DNA of 46,924 nt from Acidobacteriota bacterium (GTDB lineage Bacteria; Acidobacteriota; Holophagae; Holophagales; Holophagaceae). The notes under the pieces were generated by a model. The model worked only from the letters and a program-made list of their open reading frames with translations. It searched no databases and was not told the origin of the DNA. The stretch lies in assembly GCA_021794095.1 (NCBI GenBank), contig JAJYRN010000020.1, positions 1-46,924 of the forward strand, written 5' to 3'. The stretch's first letter is position 1. Each line of letters opens with the position of its first letter. A program made the translations under genes and the position numbers. Shown piece by piece: positions 26,962 to 46,924 of the stretch.

Positions 26962-27018
26962 CGACCACCCCTAGCCACCGATGGATCCAGGACATGCAAC
27001 GACAGCCCTTTGCTTTTC

Positions 27019-27094
27019 ATCGGTGTGCATCGGTGTTCATCGGTGGCTTCAAAAAGCTTTTTTTAGCCACCGATACACACCGATGAACACCGAT
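27019..27094. repeat. Inverted 3 x 10-nt repeat array A (ATCGGTG type), rmlA-rmlC gap
   Basis: The left arm 27019-27048 is three 10-nt units starting ATCGGTG. The right arm 27065-27094 is the complement of three such units. Both outer arms end inward with GTGGCT/AGCCAC. The 16-nt centre is A/T-rich and itself self-complementary (AAAAAGCTTTTT). The arms differ at three positions but keep the 10-nt period. A further partial unit lies at 26974-26985. Confidence 0.85.
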
Positions 27095-27145
27095 AAATAC
27101 AAATAAAACAATTTTATATCTGTGGTTTTCTCGCAAGGATGCTCC

Positions 27146-27662: not shown

Positions 27663-27740
27663 AGCCACAAAGGACACAAAGTTCACAAAATCTAAAAAAC
27701 CATTCTTCTTTTCTTTGTGTTCTTTGTGTTCTTTGTGGCC
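27663..27740. repeat. Inverted 9-nt repeat array B (CTTTGTGTT type), rmlC-rmlD gap
   Basis: The left arm 27663-27690 is built of ACAAAG-containing 9-nt units beginning AGCCAC. The right arm 27713-27740 is CTTTGTGTT repeated, ending CTTTGTGGCC. Arms of 28 nt pair with a few mismatches around a 22-nt centre. The layout is the same as array A but with a different core and a 9-nt period. Confidence 0.82.
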
Positions 27741-27775: not shown

Positions 27776-28624
27776 ATGAAGGTTCTGGTCACCGGCGCTT
27801 CAGGCCAGCTCGCCCACGCCATTCGCTTGGTGTGGACAGCCCATGACCTGATCCTCCCCGAGGAATCCCTTCTCGACCTCAGCAAGCAAACGGCCATCCA
27901 ATCGGTGGTTGCCCAGGCCCGCCCCGACGTGGTCATCAACTGCGCCGCCTTCACGCAGGTGGACCGCTGCGAATCGGAGGCCGACCTGGCCCAGCTCATC
28001 AACGGCACGGCCGTGGGCTGGCTGGCGGAGGCCTGCGAGGCTCAGGGGGCGATGCTCGTCCAGGTGAGCACCGACTACGTCTTCGACGGCACCGCCACCC
28101 GGCCCTACCGGGAGGAGGATCCGACGCACCCGATGTCGGTGTACGGCCGCACCAAGCTGGAGGGCGAACGCCAGGCGGCCCGGTGCCGCCGGCACCTCAT
28201 CGCCCGCACCAGCTGGCTGTACGACGCCTGGGGGAAGAACTTCCTGAACACCATGCTGAACGCCGCGGCCCAGGGCCGGAGCCTGCGGGTGGTGGATGAC
28301 CAGCGTGGCGCCCCCACCACCTGCCGGGCCCTGGCCCGCCAGCTGAAGGTGGCCGCCGAAGAGGGCTGGCAGGGGATCGTCCACACCACCTGCACCGGGG
28401 AGACCACCTGGCACGGCTTCGCGAAGACGATCTTCGAGGCCAAGGGGATCGCCGCGGATCTCAGCCCCTGCACCACCGCCGACTACCCCACCCCTGCCCA
28501 GCGCCCCGCCTACTCCGTCCTTGACGGCGCCCGCCGCCGCACCCTCGGCCCCGACCTCATGCCCCACTGGCACGAGGCCCTGCTCGAAGTCATGAAAGAA
28601 GGCGCCACCGATGCACACCAATAA
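27776..28624 (+). CDS. rmlD: dTDP-4-dehydrorhamnose reductase
   Basis: A 282-residue short-chain reductase completing dTDP-L-rhamnose. The NAD(P)-binding motif is VTGASGQLAHA. STDYVFDG and VYGRTKLEGE (YxxxK active site) are family signatures, and INCAAFTQVDRCE matches the conserved NxAAxTxVDxAE. The start at MKVLVTG has GAGGTGG upstream; the slightly longer in-frame start lacks this. It lies between repeat arrays B and C, apart from the other rml genes. Confidence 0.93.
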   Translation: MKVLVTGASGQLAHAIRLVWTAHDLILPEESLLDLSKQTAIQSVVAQARPDVVINCAAFTQVDRCESEADLAQLINGTAVGWLAEACEAQGAMLVQVSTDYVFDGTATRPYREEDPTHPMSVYGRTKLEGERQAARCRRHLIARTSWLYDAWGKNFLNTMLNAAAQGRSLRVVDDQRGAPTTCRALARQLKVAAEEGWQGIVHTTCTGETTWHGFAKTIFEAKGIAADLSPCTTADYPTPAQRPAYSVLDGARRRTLGPDLMPHWHEALLEVMKEGATDAHQ

Positions 28625-28684
28625 TAGCTTCAAGCCAACCCACCAGAATCCCTTCATTCCCTTGCCTTTCTTTTATCTTTGTTC

Positions 28685-28759
28685 ATCGGTGTTCATCGGT
28701 GTTCATCGGTGGTTCAAAGGTTCTTTTTTAACCACAGATTCACACAGATGAATACAGAT
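28685..28759. repeat. Inverted 3 x 10-nt repeat array C (hybrid ATCGGTG/ATCTGTG), after rmlD
   Basis: The left arm 28685-28714 is three ATCGGTG units ending GTGGTT. The right arm 28730-28759 is the complement of ATCTGTG units beginning AACCAC. The centre is 15 nt and T-rich. The arms belong to two related sequence classes, so each unit pairs with one mismatch. This is the left border of the Uma2/DUF433/DUF5615 island. Confidence 0.82.
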
Positions 28760-28838
28760 AACCAAAGCTTCTCTGTTCGCTTCTGGTCTTCATACTATCT
28801 GGGGAAGGATCCCCAGCCCCGGATCTGGAGGAGCGCCC

Positions 28839-30152: not shown

Positions 30153-30230
30153 TCTCCTCTCTTTTGATCACCGTCCATCCGCCCCTATCATTCCTCATCA
30201 CCGTTCTGCTTTTCCTTTCTCTTCTTTTTC

Positions 30231-30294
30231 ATCGGTGTCCATCGGTGTTCATCGGTGGCCAAAAAATCTTTCTCAACCACCGATGCACACCGAT
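30231..30294. repeat. Inverted 10-nt repeat array D (ATCGGTG type), before rmlB
   Basis: The left arm 30231-30260 is three ATCGGTG units ending GTGGCC. The right arm 30275-30294 is the complement of two units beginning AACCAC. The centre is 14 nt. It is the right border of the Uma2/DUF433/DUF5615 island. Confidence 0.82.
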
Positions 30295-30343
30295 AAAAGC
30301 TTCAACCCGACATCTCCTTCAATTCCCTCCTCTTCCTTCTTTC

Positions 30344-30373
30344 ATCTGTGTCCATCTGTGTTCATCTGTGGTT
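30344..30373 (+). repeat. Single 3 x 10-nt arm (ATCTGTG type), before rmlB
   Basis: Three 10-nt units ATCTGTG ending GTGGTT lie 50 bp after array D and 33 bp before rmlB. No facing complement is found nearby, but it could pair with the right arm of array C (28730-28759), which has the same core, across the island. Confidence 0.8.
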
Positions 30374-43263: not shown

Positions 43264-43493
43264 GAAGGCTCCTGGGCCCTGCGGGCCCTTGTGGCTCCCC
43301 CCGAACCCGGGGCGCTCGGCCCGGGGCTCCTGCGATCGCTCCATGAAACCCTTCCCGGGAATGGGAGCGGGGCTTCCTGCAGAGGTCGCCGCCGAAGGGG
43401 AGCAGGTGAAAATCGGCAGTCCCAAGCATAGCACCCCCGGGAACAGGCCCGAAGGGCAAAGGGCCGGTGATGGGTGAGGGTGAAAAGAGAAAT

Positions 43494-43523
43494 GGCCGGT
43501 GATGAACGGTGATGGACGGTGAT
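43494..43523 (-). repeat. 3 x 10-nt arm E (GGTGAT type)
   Basis: Units GGTGATGAAC, GGTGATGGAC and GGTGAT preceded by GGCC. It faces arm F (43734-43763) as its complement at 210 bp. Degenerate single units flank it at about 43462-43480 and 43534-43545. Confidence 0.8.
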
Positions 43524-43615
43524 AAAGACAAAGGCACGGTGATGAAAAGCGTGGGATGGGTGGGGGGGGCGGGAGGTTGGCAGTGGGCAGACGGTGGGTA
43601 CACCCCGGGTCCTCC

Positions 43616-43673
43616 CTGGGTGGGCGGCGGCCCGGGCGGCCCCTAGAAGCCGCCTTGGCCGCCGCCCACCCAG
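43616..43673. repeat. 17-bp perfect GC-rich palindrome upstream of pnp
   Basis: Arms 43616-43632 and 43657-43673 pair at all 17 positions around 24 nt, and an inner GGCGGC/GCCGCC pair can extend the stem. It lies between repeat arms E and F. It could be a terminator, a leader structure or the core of a small palindromic element. Confidence 0.65.
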
Positions 43674-43704: not shown

Positions 43705-43763
43705 GGCCCGGAGGACCCTCGCCCAAGAGGGCCATCACCGTTTATCAACGTCCATCACCGGCC
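43705..43763 (+). repeat. Repeat arm F with upstream mini-hairpin
   Basis: Three 10-nt units beginning ATCACCG/ATCAACG and ending CCGGCC (43734-43763). They are preceded by a conserved 29-nt leader containing a CCCTC-(6 nt)-GAGGG hairpin (43716-43731). The same leader recurs exactly 150 bp downstream in front of arm G. Confidence 0.8.
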
Positions 43764-43854
43764 AAAAGACCTTTGCTTGTGTCCTTCGCTTTTTCTTCAA
43801 GACCGCTGACACTGCGGCCCTTCAATGGCCCCGAGTCGCCATCCAGCTGCCGCC

Positions 43855-43923
43855 GGCCCGGAGAACCCTTGCCCAGAAGGGCCATCACTGTTTATCACTG
43901 TTTATCACCGTCCATCACCGGCT
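43855..43923 (+). repeat. Repeat arm G with upstream mini-hairpin
   Basis: Four 10-nt units (ATCACTG twice, then ATCACCG twice, ending CCGGCT; 43884-43923) preceded by the same 29-nt leader as arm F. Here the hairpin is CCCTT-(6 nt)-AAGGG (43866-43881). The stem change C/G to T/A is compensatory. It lies just before the GxxExxY gene and faces arm H beyond it. Confidence 0.82.
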
Positions 43924-43950
43924 TATTCTTGTCTTTTCCTTGAGGTGACC

Positions 43951-44352
43951 ATGCCCGAGAACGATCCTTTGACGGAGAAGATCCTCGCCTGTGCGTACCG
44001 CGTGGCCAATGAACTGGGGGCGGGCTTTCTTGAGAAGGTCTACGAGAACGCGTTGGCGCATGAACTGCGGAAGGCCGGTCTGCACGTAGAGCAACAGCAC
44101 CTAATGGAGGTGCACTACGACGGCATCATCGTCGGCACCTACGCCGTGGACCTCCTTGTGGAAAGGCGTATCCTGATCGAACTCAAAGCTTGCAAGGCCT
44201 TGGATGACGCCCATATCGCCCAGGGCCTGAATTACCTCAAAGCCACAAGCCAAGCCACCTGCCTGCTCCTGAACTTCGGGAAAGCCAAGGTCGAAGTCCG
44301 CCGCCTCATGCGCGGCCCCCAGACGTTCGCCACAGAGAGGCATGGCCCCTGA
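43951..44352 (+). CDS. GxxExxY protein (PD-(D/E)XK-like)
   Basis: A 133-residue member of the GxxExxY family. The name-giving motif is GFLEKVYE, preceded by LTEKILACAYRVANELGAG. VDLLVERRILIELKA supplies the Asp and Glu-x-Lys of a PD-(D/E)XK nuclease fold, followed by AQGLNYLKA. The biological role of the family is unknown to me. The ATG has TGAGGTG upstream. The gene is bracketed by inverted repeat arms G and H, so it looks like a cassette. Confidence 0.88.
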   Translation: MPENDPLTEKILACAYRVANELGAGFLEKVYENALAHELRKAGLHVEQQHLMEVHYDGIIVGTYAVDLLVERRILIELKACKALDDAHIAQGLNYLKATSQATCLLLNFGKAKVEVRRLMRGPQTFATERHGP

Positions 44353-44376
44353 GGCGTGGGGATGAAAAGAGCTTTT

Positions 44377-44406
44377 GGCCGGTGATGAACGGTGTTGGAC
44401 AGTGAT
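44377..44406 (-). repeat. 3 x 10-nt arm H (GGTGAT type) after the GxxExxY gene
   Basis: GGCC followed by GGTGATGAAC, GGTGTTGGAC and AGTGAT. It is the complement of arm G to the left of the gene, so the GxxExxY gene lies between inverted arms. The flanking sequence GAGCTTTTGGCC recurs nearly unchanged at arm K. Confidence 0.8.
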
Positions 44407-44441
44407 CAAAAAACTGAAACAAGAATCAATTAACGGCCAGA

Positions 44442-44460
44442 TCGCACGCATTCCGTGCGA
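44442..44460. terminator. Short inverted repeat downstream of the antitoxin gene
   Basis: TCGCAC and GTGCGA separated by 7 nt, about 57 bp after the stop of the BrnT-associated antitoxin. A weak candidate terminator for that operon. Confidence 0.3.
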
Positions 44461-44516
44461 AGCGCTCGGTCATCACCTAGCTTTCGAACAGGTGGAACTT
44501 GGGTGGGTTCCGGTCC

Positions 44517-44843
44517 TCAGCGCTTCGCCCACTCCATGAGGGCGAGTTGGGCCGCCGCGTTGGGAGTGAGTCCGGCCGAGCGTGCCTTGGTCGAAAAGTC
44601 CTGCCAGATGGAAGGCTTTACCCGCAGGGTGTGAACCTCGGCAGCTTCCACGACCTGCCCCTTGCGAGGCCGTCCCTGCGGCGTTAGGAGCGCGGGGATG
44701 TGCGGCCCTAACTCAGCCTCAGCCGCTTGCGCTACGCGGGCATAATCAGCCTGTACGGCCTTGTGGGTATGGCTATCCCTTTTGGCCAGCTCAAGAGCCT
44801 CCTCCAAGGTGATCTTCTTTTCGAGGGGTAGCAGTTTGCCCAT
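44517..44843 (-). CDS. Putative antitoxin of the BrnT-like pair
   Basis: A 108-residue protein I do not match to a named family with certainty. The C-terminal part HTLRVKPSIWQDFSTKARSAGLTPNAAAQLALMEW looks like a ribbon-helix-helix/CopG-type DNA-binding domain. The N-terminal half is charged and helical (LEKKITLEEALELAKRDSHTHKAV). It lies 11 nt after a BrnT-like toxin gene with a GGAGG site, so an antitoxin role fits. It is longer than a typical BrnA and has a different N-terminus. Confidence 0.7.
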   Translation of the reverse strand: MGKLLPLEKKITLEEALELAKRDSHTHKAVQADYARVAQAAEAELGPHIPALLTPQGRPRKGQVVEAAEVHTLRVKPSIWQDFSTKARSAGLTPNAAAQLALMEWAKR

Positions 44844-44854
44844 GGGAAACCTCC

Positions 44855-45079
44855 TTAAAGGGGGAAGCAGGTGATGGGGTAGATGGTGCCGGACGCGCTG
44901 ATATCGCAGATCAAGCGGTAAAGCCGCCCGTCAACTTCGGCCTCAATCAGGTAGCGGTGTCGCGTTTGTGAGGCATGCATGTTGTCCGCCCCGGCCCAGA
45001 ACACGCTTTCCGCCAGTTCGGGAGAGACGCCGTGCATCCCGATGTGGCCTGTGTTGTTTTTGTCCCAGAGAAACTCCAT
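44855..45079 (-). CDS. BrnT-like toxin
   Basis: A 74-residue protein resembling BrnT RNase-fold toxins. The opening MEFLWDKNNTGHIGMHGVSPELAESVFW matches the family start (FxWDxxN...HGVSxxxAxxVF). RHRYLIEAEVDGRLYRLICDI is the middle beta-sheet. The typical C-terminal IRIISAR is replaced by IYPITCFPL, so catalytic residues may differ. GGGAG precedes the ATG. Toxin-first order with the antitoxin downstream. Confidence 0.75.
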   Translation of the reverse strand: MEFLWDKNNTGHIGMHGVSPELAESVFWAGADNMHASQTRHRYLIEAEVDGRLYRLICDISASGTIYPITCFPL

Positions 45080-45241: not shown

Positions 45242-46399
45242 TCACAGCGCCAGGAGGCCTTCCCACCAGGGCAGGGCCAGGACGGGGCCCAGGCGCTGGG
45301 GATGGGGATCGCGGGACAGGAGGAAGACTTCGGCGTCGGGAAAATCGGGCAGGAGGGCGCGCAGGGCCGCGGCGTGGTCCTCGCGAACCCGGTCGGTGCT
45401 CTTGATCTCCACCAGGGCCAGGGGGCGGCCGGGACGCTGGAGCACCAGGTCCACCTCGCGACCGGCCTTGGTGCGCAGGTAGGAAAAGCGCCAGTCCAAC
45501 TGTTCGTACGCATTCCGGGCGAAGAGTTCGGTCATCACCCGGCTTTCGAACAGATCCCCGAAATAGCTGGTACCGGGATTCAGCGGCACCTGGAGCATGC
45601 GGCTGAGGGCCCGGGTGATGCCGGTGTCGAACAGGTAGAACTTGGGGGCCTGCCGGAGTTGCTTGCGGACGGAGCTGTGGAAGCCGTCCACATGGAAGCC
45701 CAGGAGGGTGTCCTCCAGCACCTGGTACCAGGCCTGGATGGTCTTGGGGTCGCTGCCCACCTCCCGGGCAATGCGGGCATGGTTGAGGATCTTGCCGTCG
45801 TTCTGGGCTGCGACCTCCAGGAAGCGCCGGAAGGGATCCAGGTTCCGCACCACCTGTTCGGCCTGGATCTCCTCGCGCAGGTAGCCGTGGGCGTAGGCCC
45901 GCAGGAAGTCGGCGCGTTCGTTATCGGTGGTGGCGTTCCAGACGGCGGGCAGGCCGCCGAAGCGCAGGGCCCGGTCCTCGTCGTAGGCATCGCCCAGTTC
46001 GCGGCGCTGCAAGGGGAACAGGTGGCGCAGCGAAGCCCGCCCCGCCAGCAGGTTGGCGCCCCCCGCCTTGAGCTTGCGGGCGCTGGAGCCAGTGAGAATG
46101 AACCGCTGAGGCACCCGGTGGGTTTCGATGAGGTTGTGGACGGCATCCAGCAGGCGCGGGAGCTTCTGCACTTCGTCCACCACCACCTGGGTGATGGCGG
46201 GGGGCAGGGCCAGAACCTCGCGCTCCAGGGCGCGAGGTTCGCGGGCCAGGCGGTCCTCGGTATCGGCCTCCAGCAGGTTGAAGACCACGGTGGACGCCGG
46301 GGGCAGCGTCATCCGCAGCAGGGTGCTCTTCCCGGTACCCCGGGCCCCGAACAGGAAGCAACTTTTGTTGCCAGGAAGGTTGAGTAAACGATGGAACAT
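45242..46399 (-). CDS. AAA+ ATPase with DUF4143 domain
   Basis: A 385-residue protein of the AAA_14/DUF4143 family. Walker A is GARGTGKST (residues 18-26), Walker B is VVVDEVQK, and the sensor region is RFILTGSSARKL. The C-terminal DUF4143 part has a PD-(D/E)XK-like signature, REVDLVLQRPGRPLALVEIKS. Such proteins are widespread and mobile; a defence or stress role is often suspected but not established. It is next to a toxin-antitoxin pair and flanked by the period-10 repeats, so it belongs to the accessory zone. No partner gene is adjacent. Confidence 0.87.
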   Translation of the reverse strand: MFHRLLNLPGNKSCFLFGARGTGKSTLLRMTLPPASTVVFNLLEADTEDRLAREPRALEREVLALPPAITQVVVDEVQKLPRLLDAVHNLIETHRVPQRFILTGSSARKLKAGGANLLAGRASLRHLFPLQRRELGDAYDEDRALRFGGLPAVWNATTDNERADFLRAYAHGYLREEIQAEQVVRNLDPFRRFLEVAAQNDGKILNHARIAREVGSDPKTIQAWYQVLEDTLLGFHVDGFHSSVRKQLRQAPKFYLFDTGITRALSRMLQVPLNPGTSYFGDLFESRVMTELFARNAYEQLDWRFSYLRTKAGREVDLVLQRPGRPLALVEIKSTDRVREDHAAALRALLPDFPDAEVFLLSRDPHPQRLGPVLALPWWEGLLAL

Positions 46400-46495
46400 A
46401 TTCCTTATTTAGCCTCTAAAACAGGAGTATGGTCCATTTCATTCGAATGTCCAGGGGCGTATGGCCCGCGAGGGATGGGGGAGAAAAGGATCCGT

Positions 46496-46525
46496 GGCCG
46501 GTGATGAACGGCGATGGACAGTGAT
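46496..46525 (-). repeat. 3 x 10-nt arm I (GGTGAT type)
   Basis: GGCC followed by GGTGATGAAC, GGCGATGGAC and AGTGAT. It is complementary to arm J 52 bp to the right, forming an empty inverted pair. Confidence 0.8.
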
Positions 46526-46577
46526 CGAAAAACTGGAACGTGGCCAAGAACCCGCACCAGCGGCCCGAACGCCCTTC

Positions 46578-46607
46578 ATCACCGTGTATCACCGTTCATC
46601 ACCGGCT
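46578..46607 (+). repeat. 3 x 10-nt arm J (ATCACC type)
   Basis: ATCACCGTGT, ATCACCGTTC and ATCACCGGCT. It is preceded by GGCCCGAACGCCCTT, a shortened form of the leader before arms F and G. It can pair with arm I on the left or arm K on the right. Confidence 0.8.
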
Positions 46608-46699
46608 TATCCTCTGCTTTTTCAACAAGGGCGGTGGACGACGGACTGGGAGACGGCCAGCGACCCGACCAAGGAAGAGAGCGGATGAAAGAGCTTTTT

Positions 46700-46729
46700 G
46701 GCCGGTGATGAACGGTGATGGACAGTGAT
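46700..46729 (-). repeat. 3 x 10-nt arm K (GGTGAT type)
   Basis: GGCC followed by GGTGATGAAC, GGTGATGGAC and AGTGAT, with the upstream context GATGAAAGAGCTTTTT shared with arm H. It faces arm J. Confidence 0.8.
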
Positions 46730-46924
46730 CAACCCGACCTATTCCTTCCATCGTCCCGAGCCCCAACTCCCCAGAACTGATGTTCGTCTAGGACCCCGTA
46801 TGCCGTGTGTAAGTCCGATATGAGCAGGCTGAGCGCCAATTTGGGCGGGCCACGGGCCGATTGGAGTGGTCGGTTCGGGGCTCGTGGTCCGGTACGGGTT
46901 CGTGGATTTGCGTCACTCCATGGC

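Follow-up and report, generated by a model that had tools for sequence, protein, structure and literature searches.

The window analyzed, a stretch of 46,924 nt, contains a short gene of the GxxExxY family enclosed by two inverted arrays of 10-nt units, and arrays of the same kind occur nearby without a gene. This arrangement raises the question of whether the gene and its arms form a mobile cassette, as the initial annotation had suggested, and whether the encoded protein acts on the arms.

Structure of the locus

The gene (positions 43951–44352, forward strand; ATG at 43951, stop codon at 44350–44352) encodes a protein of 133 aa with a PD-(D/E)XK nuclease fold, which matched TIGR04256 (E = 2.4e-40, 137.5 bits at a cut-off of 35), the GxxExxY family, and PF13366 (PDDEXK_3; E = 6.9e-40, 136.5 bits at a cut-off of 22). 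Arm G (43883–43922, forward strand) consists of four period-10 units, CATCACTGTT, TATCACTGTT, TATCACCGTC, and CATCACCGGC, with its head towards the gene, and arm H (44377–44409, reverse strand) of three units (GGCCGGTGATGAACGGTGTTGGACAGTGATCAA) inverted relative to G. The arms are 84% complementary over 32 nt, with 455 nt in between. These family matches and this complementarity bear out the proposed presence of inverted period-10 arms around a GxxExxY gene. Copies of the unit motif CATCNSYGTNYATCNSYG in the window numbered 31, where 2.46 were expected, and none of 100 shuffles gave a count as high. The GCC "head" ends of both G and H point to the gene, unlike those at most other loci. The PD-(D/E)XK gene is the only one enclosed by the arms, and no DDE transposase is encoded there.

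The neighboring gene-less arms were present as initially described. Arms E (43493–43526, reverse strand) and F (43732–43764, forward strand) are the left and right arms of one gene-less hairpin, in the loop of which a GC-rich palindrome is nested (43616–43673; 25-nt arms, 92% complementary). Comparable large GC-rich palindromes flank same-clade GxxExxY genes at loci L389, L392, and L395 (genomes G005, G001, and G010). Arms I (46495–46528, reverse strand) and J (46575–46608, forward strand) make up a second gene-less hairpin, and arm K (46699–46733, reverse strand), 204 nt after I, represents a tandem copy of the I-J unit. The I-J-K region (46452–46743) is built of this tandem unit of about 204 nt, and a near-identical repeat is located on the small contig C9 (G000:C9:220-450). 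Elsewhere in the host genome, which comprises 3.0 Mb in 28 contigs, the window motif recurs without a gene at a few places. Gene-less hairpins with other arm classes (CACCGATGAA, CACAAAG, and CACAGATG) were found in the window at 27016–27097, 27664–27739, 28606–28760, and 30164–30370, in a region of envelope and sugar-nucleotide genes, and one of them directly precedes a Uma2 gene.

Two segments beside arm H (44442–44491 and 44484–44513) are 83%–88% identical to parts of a DUF4143/AAA_14 ATPase gene (45504–45553 and 45627–45656) and appear to be either a degraded second copy or the scar of a recombination event. The two small neighboring genes at 44517–44843 and 44855–45079, both on the reverse strand, resemble a BrnA/BrnT-type toxin-antitoxin pair by sequence; no Pfam or NCBIfam match was obtained for this putative pair at 1e-3.

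The GxxExxY protein

In an alignment of 52 sequences, the glutamate of the GxxExxY motif (E28), D67, and E77 were invariant and K79 was nearly so. The AlphaFold2 model of the window protein had a pLDDT of 91 and matched, among other PDB structures, those of Cas4 SSO0001 (4ic1, Z 9.8), AF1548 (1y88, Z 8.4), and the Hjc resolvase (Z 7.4), while a search of PDB sequences with the family profile yielded no credible relative. Matches with Z of 7 to 10 show a common fold only. The predicted fold and the conserved E28, D67, and E77-x-K79 residues place the protein in the PD-(D/E)XK nuclease superfamily, as had been proposed; its nuclease activity is inferred. With PD-(D/E)XK proteins of DNA mobility and junctions, such as the Hjc resolvase and Cas4, it shares the nuclease fold and the conserved E...D...ExK residues. 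TnsA and Rpn are further PD-(D/E)XK proteins with links to DNA mobility or junctions, and we know of no such protein that is flanked by clade-specific short-period inverted arms. For the gene copy located between tsaD and gatC in other genomes, dN/dS was 0.04–0.14 where it could be computed. This indicates purifying selection, and therefore this copy does something.

Inverted arms accompany GxxExxY genes across phyla

All five GxxExxY genes of the host genome were bracketed by inverted short-period arms. The architecture was common to the five loci and the letters were different: each pair of arms had its own unit sequence, the units at the other four genes being CCGCCAAGACACCAAGAACGCCAAG, GTCACGGAAGACACGGAA, ACCGCGAAACACGCGAAAGGACGCGAAA, and GCCACAAAGAACACAAAG, and none of them had the window arm sequence. 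These separate unit sequences rule out a single repeat family specific to the window locus.

The arm score of a locus was the best inverted match that the 300 nt preceding the gene made with the 300 nt following it, with a threshold of 16. Among the first-sampled loci of the genus, 33 of 34 reached this score (median 24.75), and a single shifted window out of 130 taken from the same loci was above the threshold, scoring 18. Nineteen of 20 further genus loci also reached 16, of which 16 had short-period arms and 3 scored via a GC-rich palindrome instead. The cross-phylum sample comprised 80 loci from genome contigs of at least 15 phyla and Methanosarcinales, 78 of them scorable; 53 reached the threshold, compared with 2 of 508 shifted windows. 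One third of the cross-phylum loci fell below it, several of which show units by eye. One IMG/VR contig also carried a GxxExxY gene with arms. The best unit period was 10 in 42 loci and 9 in 35, and on either side the median distance between arm and family match was about 32 nt. According to a rough motif-based count, 68 loci had outward heads, with the gene in the hairpin loop, and 6 had inward heads. The arms are read as coding within several GxxExxY open reading frames (L002 and the tsaD-gatC copies), giving, for example, "HRQDAKTPRK" in front and "PQRTQRTQ" behind, which can be an annotation trap.

The local repetition near 43.5–46.7 kb is the only observation that would fit chance or a duplication artefact at one locus. 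All controls are against such an origin (0/100 shuffles; 1/130 and 2/508 shifted windows, and 2/109 for the second gene family described below), and the motif shuffles together with the enrichment outside the window locus refute chance, so that practically no weight remains for it. The accessory PD-(D/E)XK family Uma2, present in the same genomes, had arms at none of 11 genes, which rules out that any accessory nuclease gene acquires them. A typical arm had no match in Escherichia coli. Spread by plasmids was rejected, since a relative was found in only 8 of 72,556 plasmid records, all of them non-mobilizable.

Arm sequence and protein clade

Clustering of the proteins grouped the arms too. 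One clade, found in at least 10 lineages including archaea, was associated with CRCAGATGAA-like units of 10 nt, clades of Verrucomicrobia, Desulfobacterota, and Planctomycetes with ACAGGATTA units of 9 nt, and the clade with the FYxVYNxLGYGFLEKVYEN motif with AGAACRCGGATGACRCGGAT leads. For pairs from different phyla, arm similarity correlated with protein similarity (Mantel test, rho = 0.33, p = 0.001, 0 of 1,000 permutations as high; the phylum of each record was taken by hand from its title), and the arms of nearest protein neighbors from different phyla were more alike (p = 2.7e-7). At the level of sequence, the arms track the protein clade even between phyla.

Presence and absence at orthologous sites

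The tsaD and gatC genes abut (TGACATG) in 22 genomes examined, and six genomes hold a GxxExxY gene and CACAAAG hairpins between the stop and the start codon; genome G036 has a gene-less hairpin of another class at this position. Upstream of alaS, the gene cassette was present in four genomes, a gene-less CACCAAG hairpin in about eight, and neither in the others. Two of the CACCAAG gene-less hairpins in the alaS spacer (L150 and L173) have a second small palindrome (CTCGGTATCGC...GCGATACACGAG) in the loop, and a gene-less period-7 array is located upstream of alaS at L171. In G002, G003, or G009, tight stop-ATG junctions lack the gene-less hairpins that G005 carries there. At the window site, near pnp, the gene is present in G000 and G029 and absent from the closest relative, G022 (95% identity). 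The initial annotation had proposed comparing strains for presence or absence with precise borders at the arms. The difference in presence was observed; the sites compared, where the spacers had diverged because the genomes belong to different species, showed neither a target-site duplication nor an exact border. That annotation had also named what would refute it, namely no enrichment of the arms beside GxxExxY genes elsewhere or no strain variation at this site; given the enrichment and the polymorphism, neither refutation applies.

One spacer, empty in G003, contains hairpins at the same place in G002, G009, and G004 with differing units (CGCGAAAG, CGCGAATG). Positions had changed in both arms, and therefore the arms evolve as a pair. 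These hairpins, the alternation of gene-bearing and gene-less forms in the same alaS spacer, and a PD-(D/E)XK fold matching the Hjc resolvase and Cas4 could also be expected from homing and gene conversion. The nuclease would then cut arm-bearing or empty sites, repair from another copy would turn a gene-less hairpin into a gene-bearing one, and the arms would be homology and recognition sites rather than transposon ends. Such a process leaves unexplained the new gene-less hairpins between abutting genes, as well as the unlike arm sequences around different clades in one genome, and we consider it unlikely, though it deserves attention.

A second family with inverted arms and the 23S rRNA intervening sequences

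Genes of the four-helix-bundle family TIGR02436 (S23-like), taken as a comparison, were also bracketed, in this case by inverted period-7 arrays. These were found at most of 14 genus loci and at 26 of 29 loci phylum-wide, compared with 2 of 109 shifted windows, with units such as AGTCTTC, AGCTATC, and AGTTGGC and some units of 8–9 nt (L305-L322, L337-L365). To our knowledge, the four-helix-bundle proteins have no nuclease site. Since genes of this family share the architecture, the nuclease may not be the mover of the arms.

The intervening sequence of Coxiella 23S rRNA is 428 nt long and has 28-bp terminal inverted repeats, the loop of which contains an S23 gene (PMC4990558). The GxxExxY elements are similar to it in being about 430 nt in length and in having a small gene within the loop closed by a stem of inverted repeats, and the S23-like TIGR02436 genes themselves have the same plan here; they differ in their location in intergenic spacers, in the GxxExxY nuclease-fold protein, and in the short-period arrays that serve as arms. 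The insertions occupied spacers beside pnp, alaS, and gatC and were not within the 23S rRNA gene; they lay within operons and were co-directional where examined. This position in operons, the plan of the Coxiella sequence (PMC4990558), and the period-7 arms of S23-like genes would agree with an element acting at the RNA level, the transcript of which forms a long stem with the gene in the loop and is processed by RNase III or by the encoded protein, the hairpin being kept as harmless or as regulating the operon. Neither tandem 9–10-nt units nor their association with the protein clade is predicted by an RNA-level role, and the spread of copies is unexplained by it, which makes it rather improbable as the main explanation. 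A different relation to the rRNA sequences is conceivable, although we advance it only tentatively, at somewhat less than even chances. GxxExxY proteins with 9–10-nt units and S23-like proteins with 7-nt units could belong to a so far undescribed cross-phylum class of protein-coupled hairpin elements, each protein recognizing and spreading its own periodic inverted arms, and the 23S rRNA intervening sequences would be a special case that landed in rRNA.

Dispersal of gene-less hairpins

Arms of this kind also formed gene-less hairpins of about 75–105 bp. A general arm pattern had 992 matches in 47 genomes of the genus, compared with a handful for the reversed pattern. The median number of matches was 18.5 in genomes with a GxxExxY gene and 3 in those without (p = 0.004, uncorrected for phylogeny), where the counts in the seven genomes lacking a GxxExxY match were 1, 3, 3, 2, 6, 2, and 17. 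Four periodic hairpins were found in 400 kb of G032, which has six genes, and none in 400 kb of G018, which has no gene. A single pattern and the 400-kb samples of two genomes underlie these arms-first counts. Arms persist in a few gene-lacking genomes, namely G044, with 17 matches, and G018 and G009, with one alaS hairpin.

Genome G005 contained about 19 gene-less hairpins or single arms of one class. The hairpins, about 19 of which were examined with their flanks, had AACC heads preceded by mostly AT-rich sequence, and inspection by eye revealed no GTAG tag. For the dominant gene-less classes (CGCAGATG in G005 and CGCAGAG in G001), no matching resident gene was found among the loci examined. 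If every gene-less class were expected to have a class-matched gene in its own genome, this expectation fails in G005, G001, G010, and G008, the last having 12 arms and a single gene of another class.

The initial annotation had likened the logic of the locus to that of REP-associated transposases while noting a different protein family, and the likeness holds for the logic alone. REP and REPIN sequences dispersed by a Y1 HUH transposase (RAYT) follow the same principle of dispersed intergenic palindromes and a dedicated enzyme, with short palindromic doublets between genes and a single-gene enzyme beside some copies (PMC3116915, PMC8266576), and the REPIN palindrome is preceded by GTAG or a similar tetranucleotide (PMC8266576). 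The elements described here have a PD-(D/E)XK protein instead of a Y1 HUH enzyme, show no GTAG in the G005 hairpins examined, and carry arms of tandem 9–10-nt units that vary with the protein clade. Of the 47 genus genomes, 42 lack Y1_Tnp (PF01797), among them the arm-carrying G000 and G005 and the arm-rich G037; therefore, these are not REPIN/RAYT systems, RAYT is rejected as the mover for most genomes, and its involvement is very improbable altogether. With bacterial MITEs and their autonomous IS elements, the hairpins share the existence of gene-less and gene-bearing versions with common inverted ends, but there is no DDE transposase, the arms are periodic, the size is about 450–550 bp, and no target-site duplication was seen in the diverged spacers.

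Between the CGCAGAG arms of L452 (G001:C7, 410–1258) lie about 780 nt that lack a GxxExxY gene and contain two small open reading frames of unknown kind, which possibly represent other cargo. Such loops with other reading frames, the use of similar arms by TIGR02436, and the hairpins in genomes without a GxxExxY gene would be accounted for if an unknown activity of the host or of another element spread the hairpins, with GxxExxY, perhaps a defense nuclease, being one of several passenger genes. A mere passenger would not be expected to have arms that track its clade across phyla, the period would not differ by protein family (9–10 versus 7 nt), and Uma2 would not be left without arms at all 11 genes, and we regard this origin as improbable.

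Proposed mechanism and implications

We lean, with only slightly better than even confidence, towards minimal mobile hairpin elements, each encoding a small protein that acts on its arms; binding, cleavage, intermediates, and target-site rules have not been shown. The autonomous form, of about 450–550 bp in total, would carry one PD-(D/E)XK (GxxExxY) gene of about 350–400 nt between inverted arms of two to five tandem 9- or 10-nt units, and hairpins that have such arms and no gene would be non-autonomous or relic copies. The protein may bind the repeated units, one protomer per unit, with a period near one helical turn, and may cut or nick the arms or the hairpin or cruciform formed by them. 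Cutting would drive the copying of arm-bounded DNA into intergenic sites, and the two arms, acting as a pair, would for this reason remain matched. Sequence comparison established the architecture of the element, its enrichment, the coupling of arms to clade, the dispersal of gene-less copies in intergenic spacers, polymorphism, and purifying selection with conserved catalytic residues, whereas the chemistry, that is, arm recognition, cutting, and copying into spacers, is inferred only.

No account of the GxxExxY arms was found in the open literature, subscription journals and preprints being outside the scope of the search. The findings point to a widespread kind of mobile element, and it is a realistic possibility that this kind forms a separate class, beyond REPIN/RAYT-like logic. 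The GxxExxY and S23-like proteins are widespread and have no assigned role, and strings like CACAGATGAACACAGATGAACACAGATG recur unexplained in environmental genomes; under the proposal, this repeat and the orphan nuclease family become parts of a single system that is open to testing. A separate binding site is predicted for each clade, and the clades together would provide many naturally matched pairs of protein and DNA. The elements would add a type of mobile element with a PD-(D/E)XK protein as its only gene and would offer an origin for the 23S rRNA intervening sequences.
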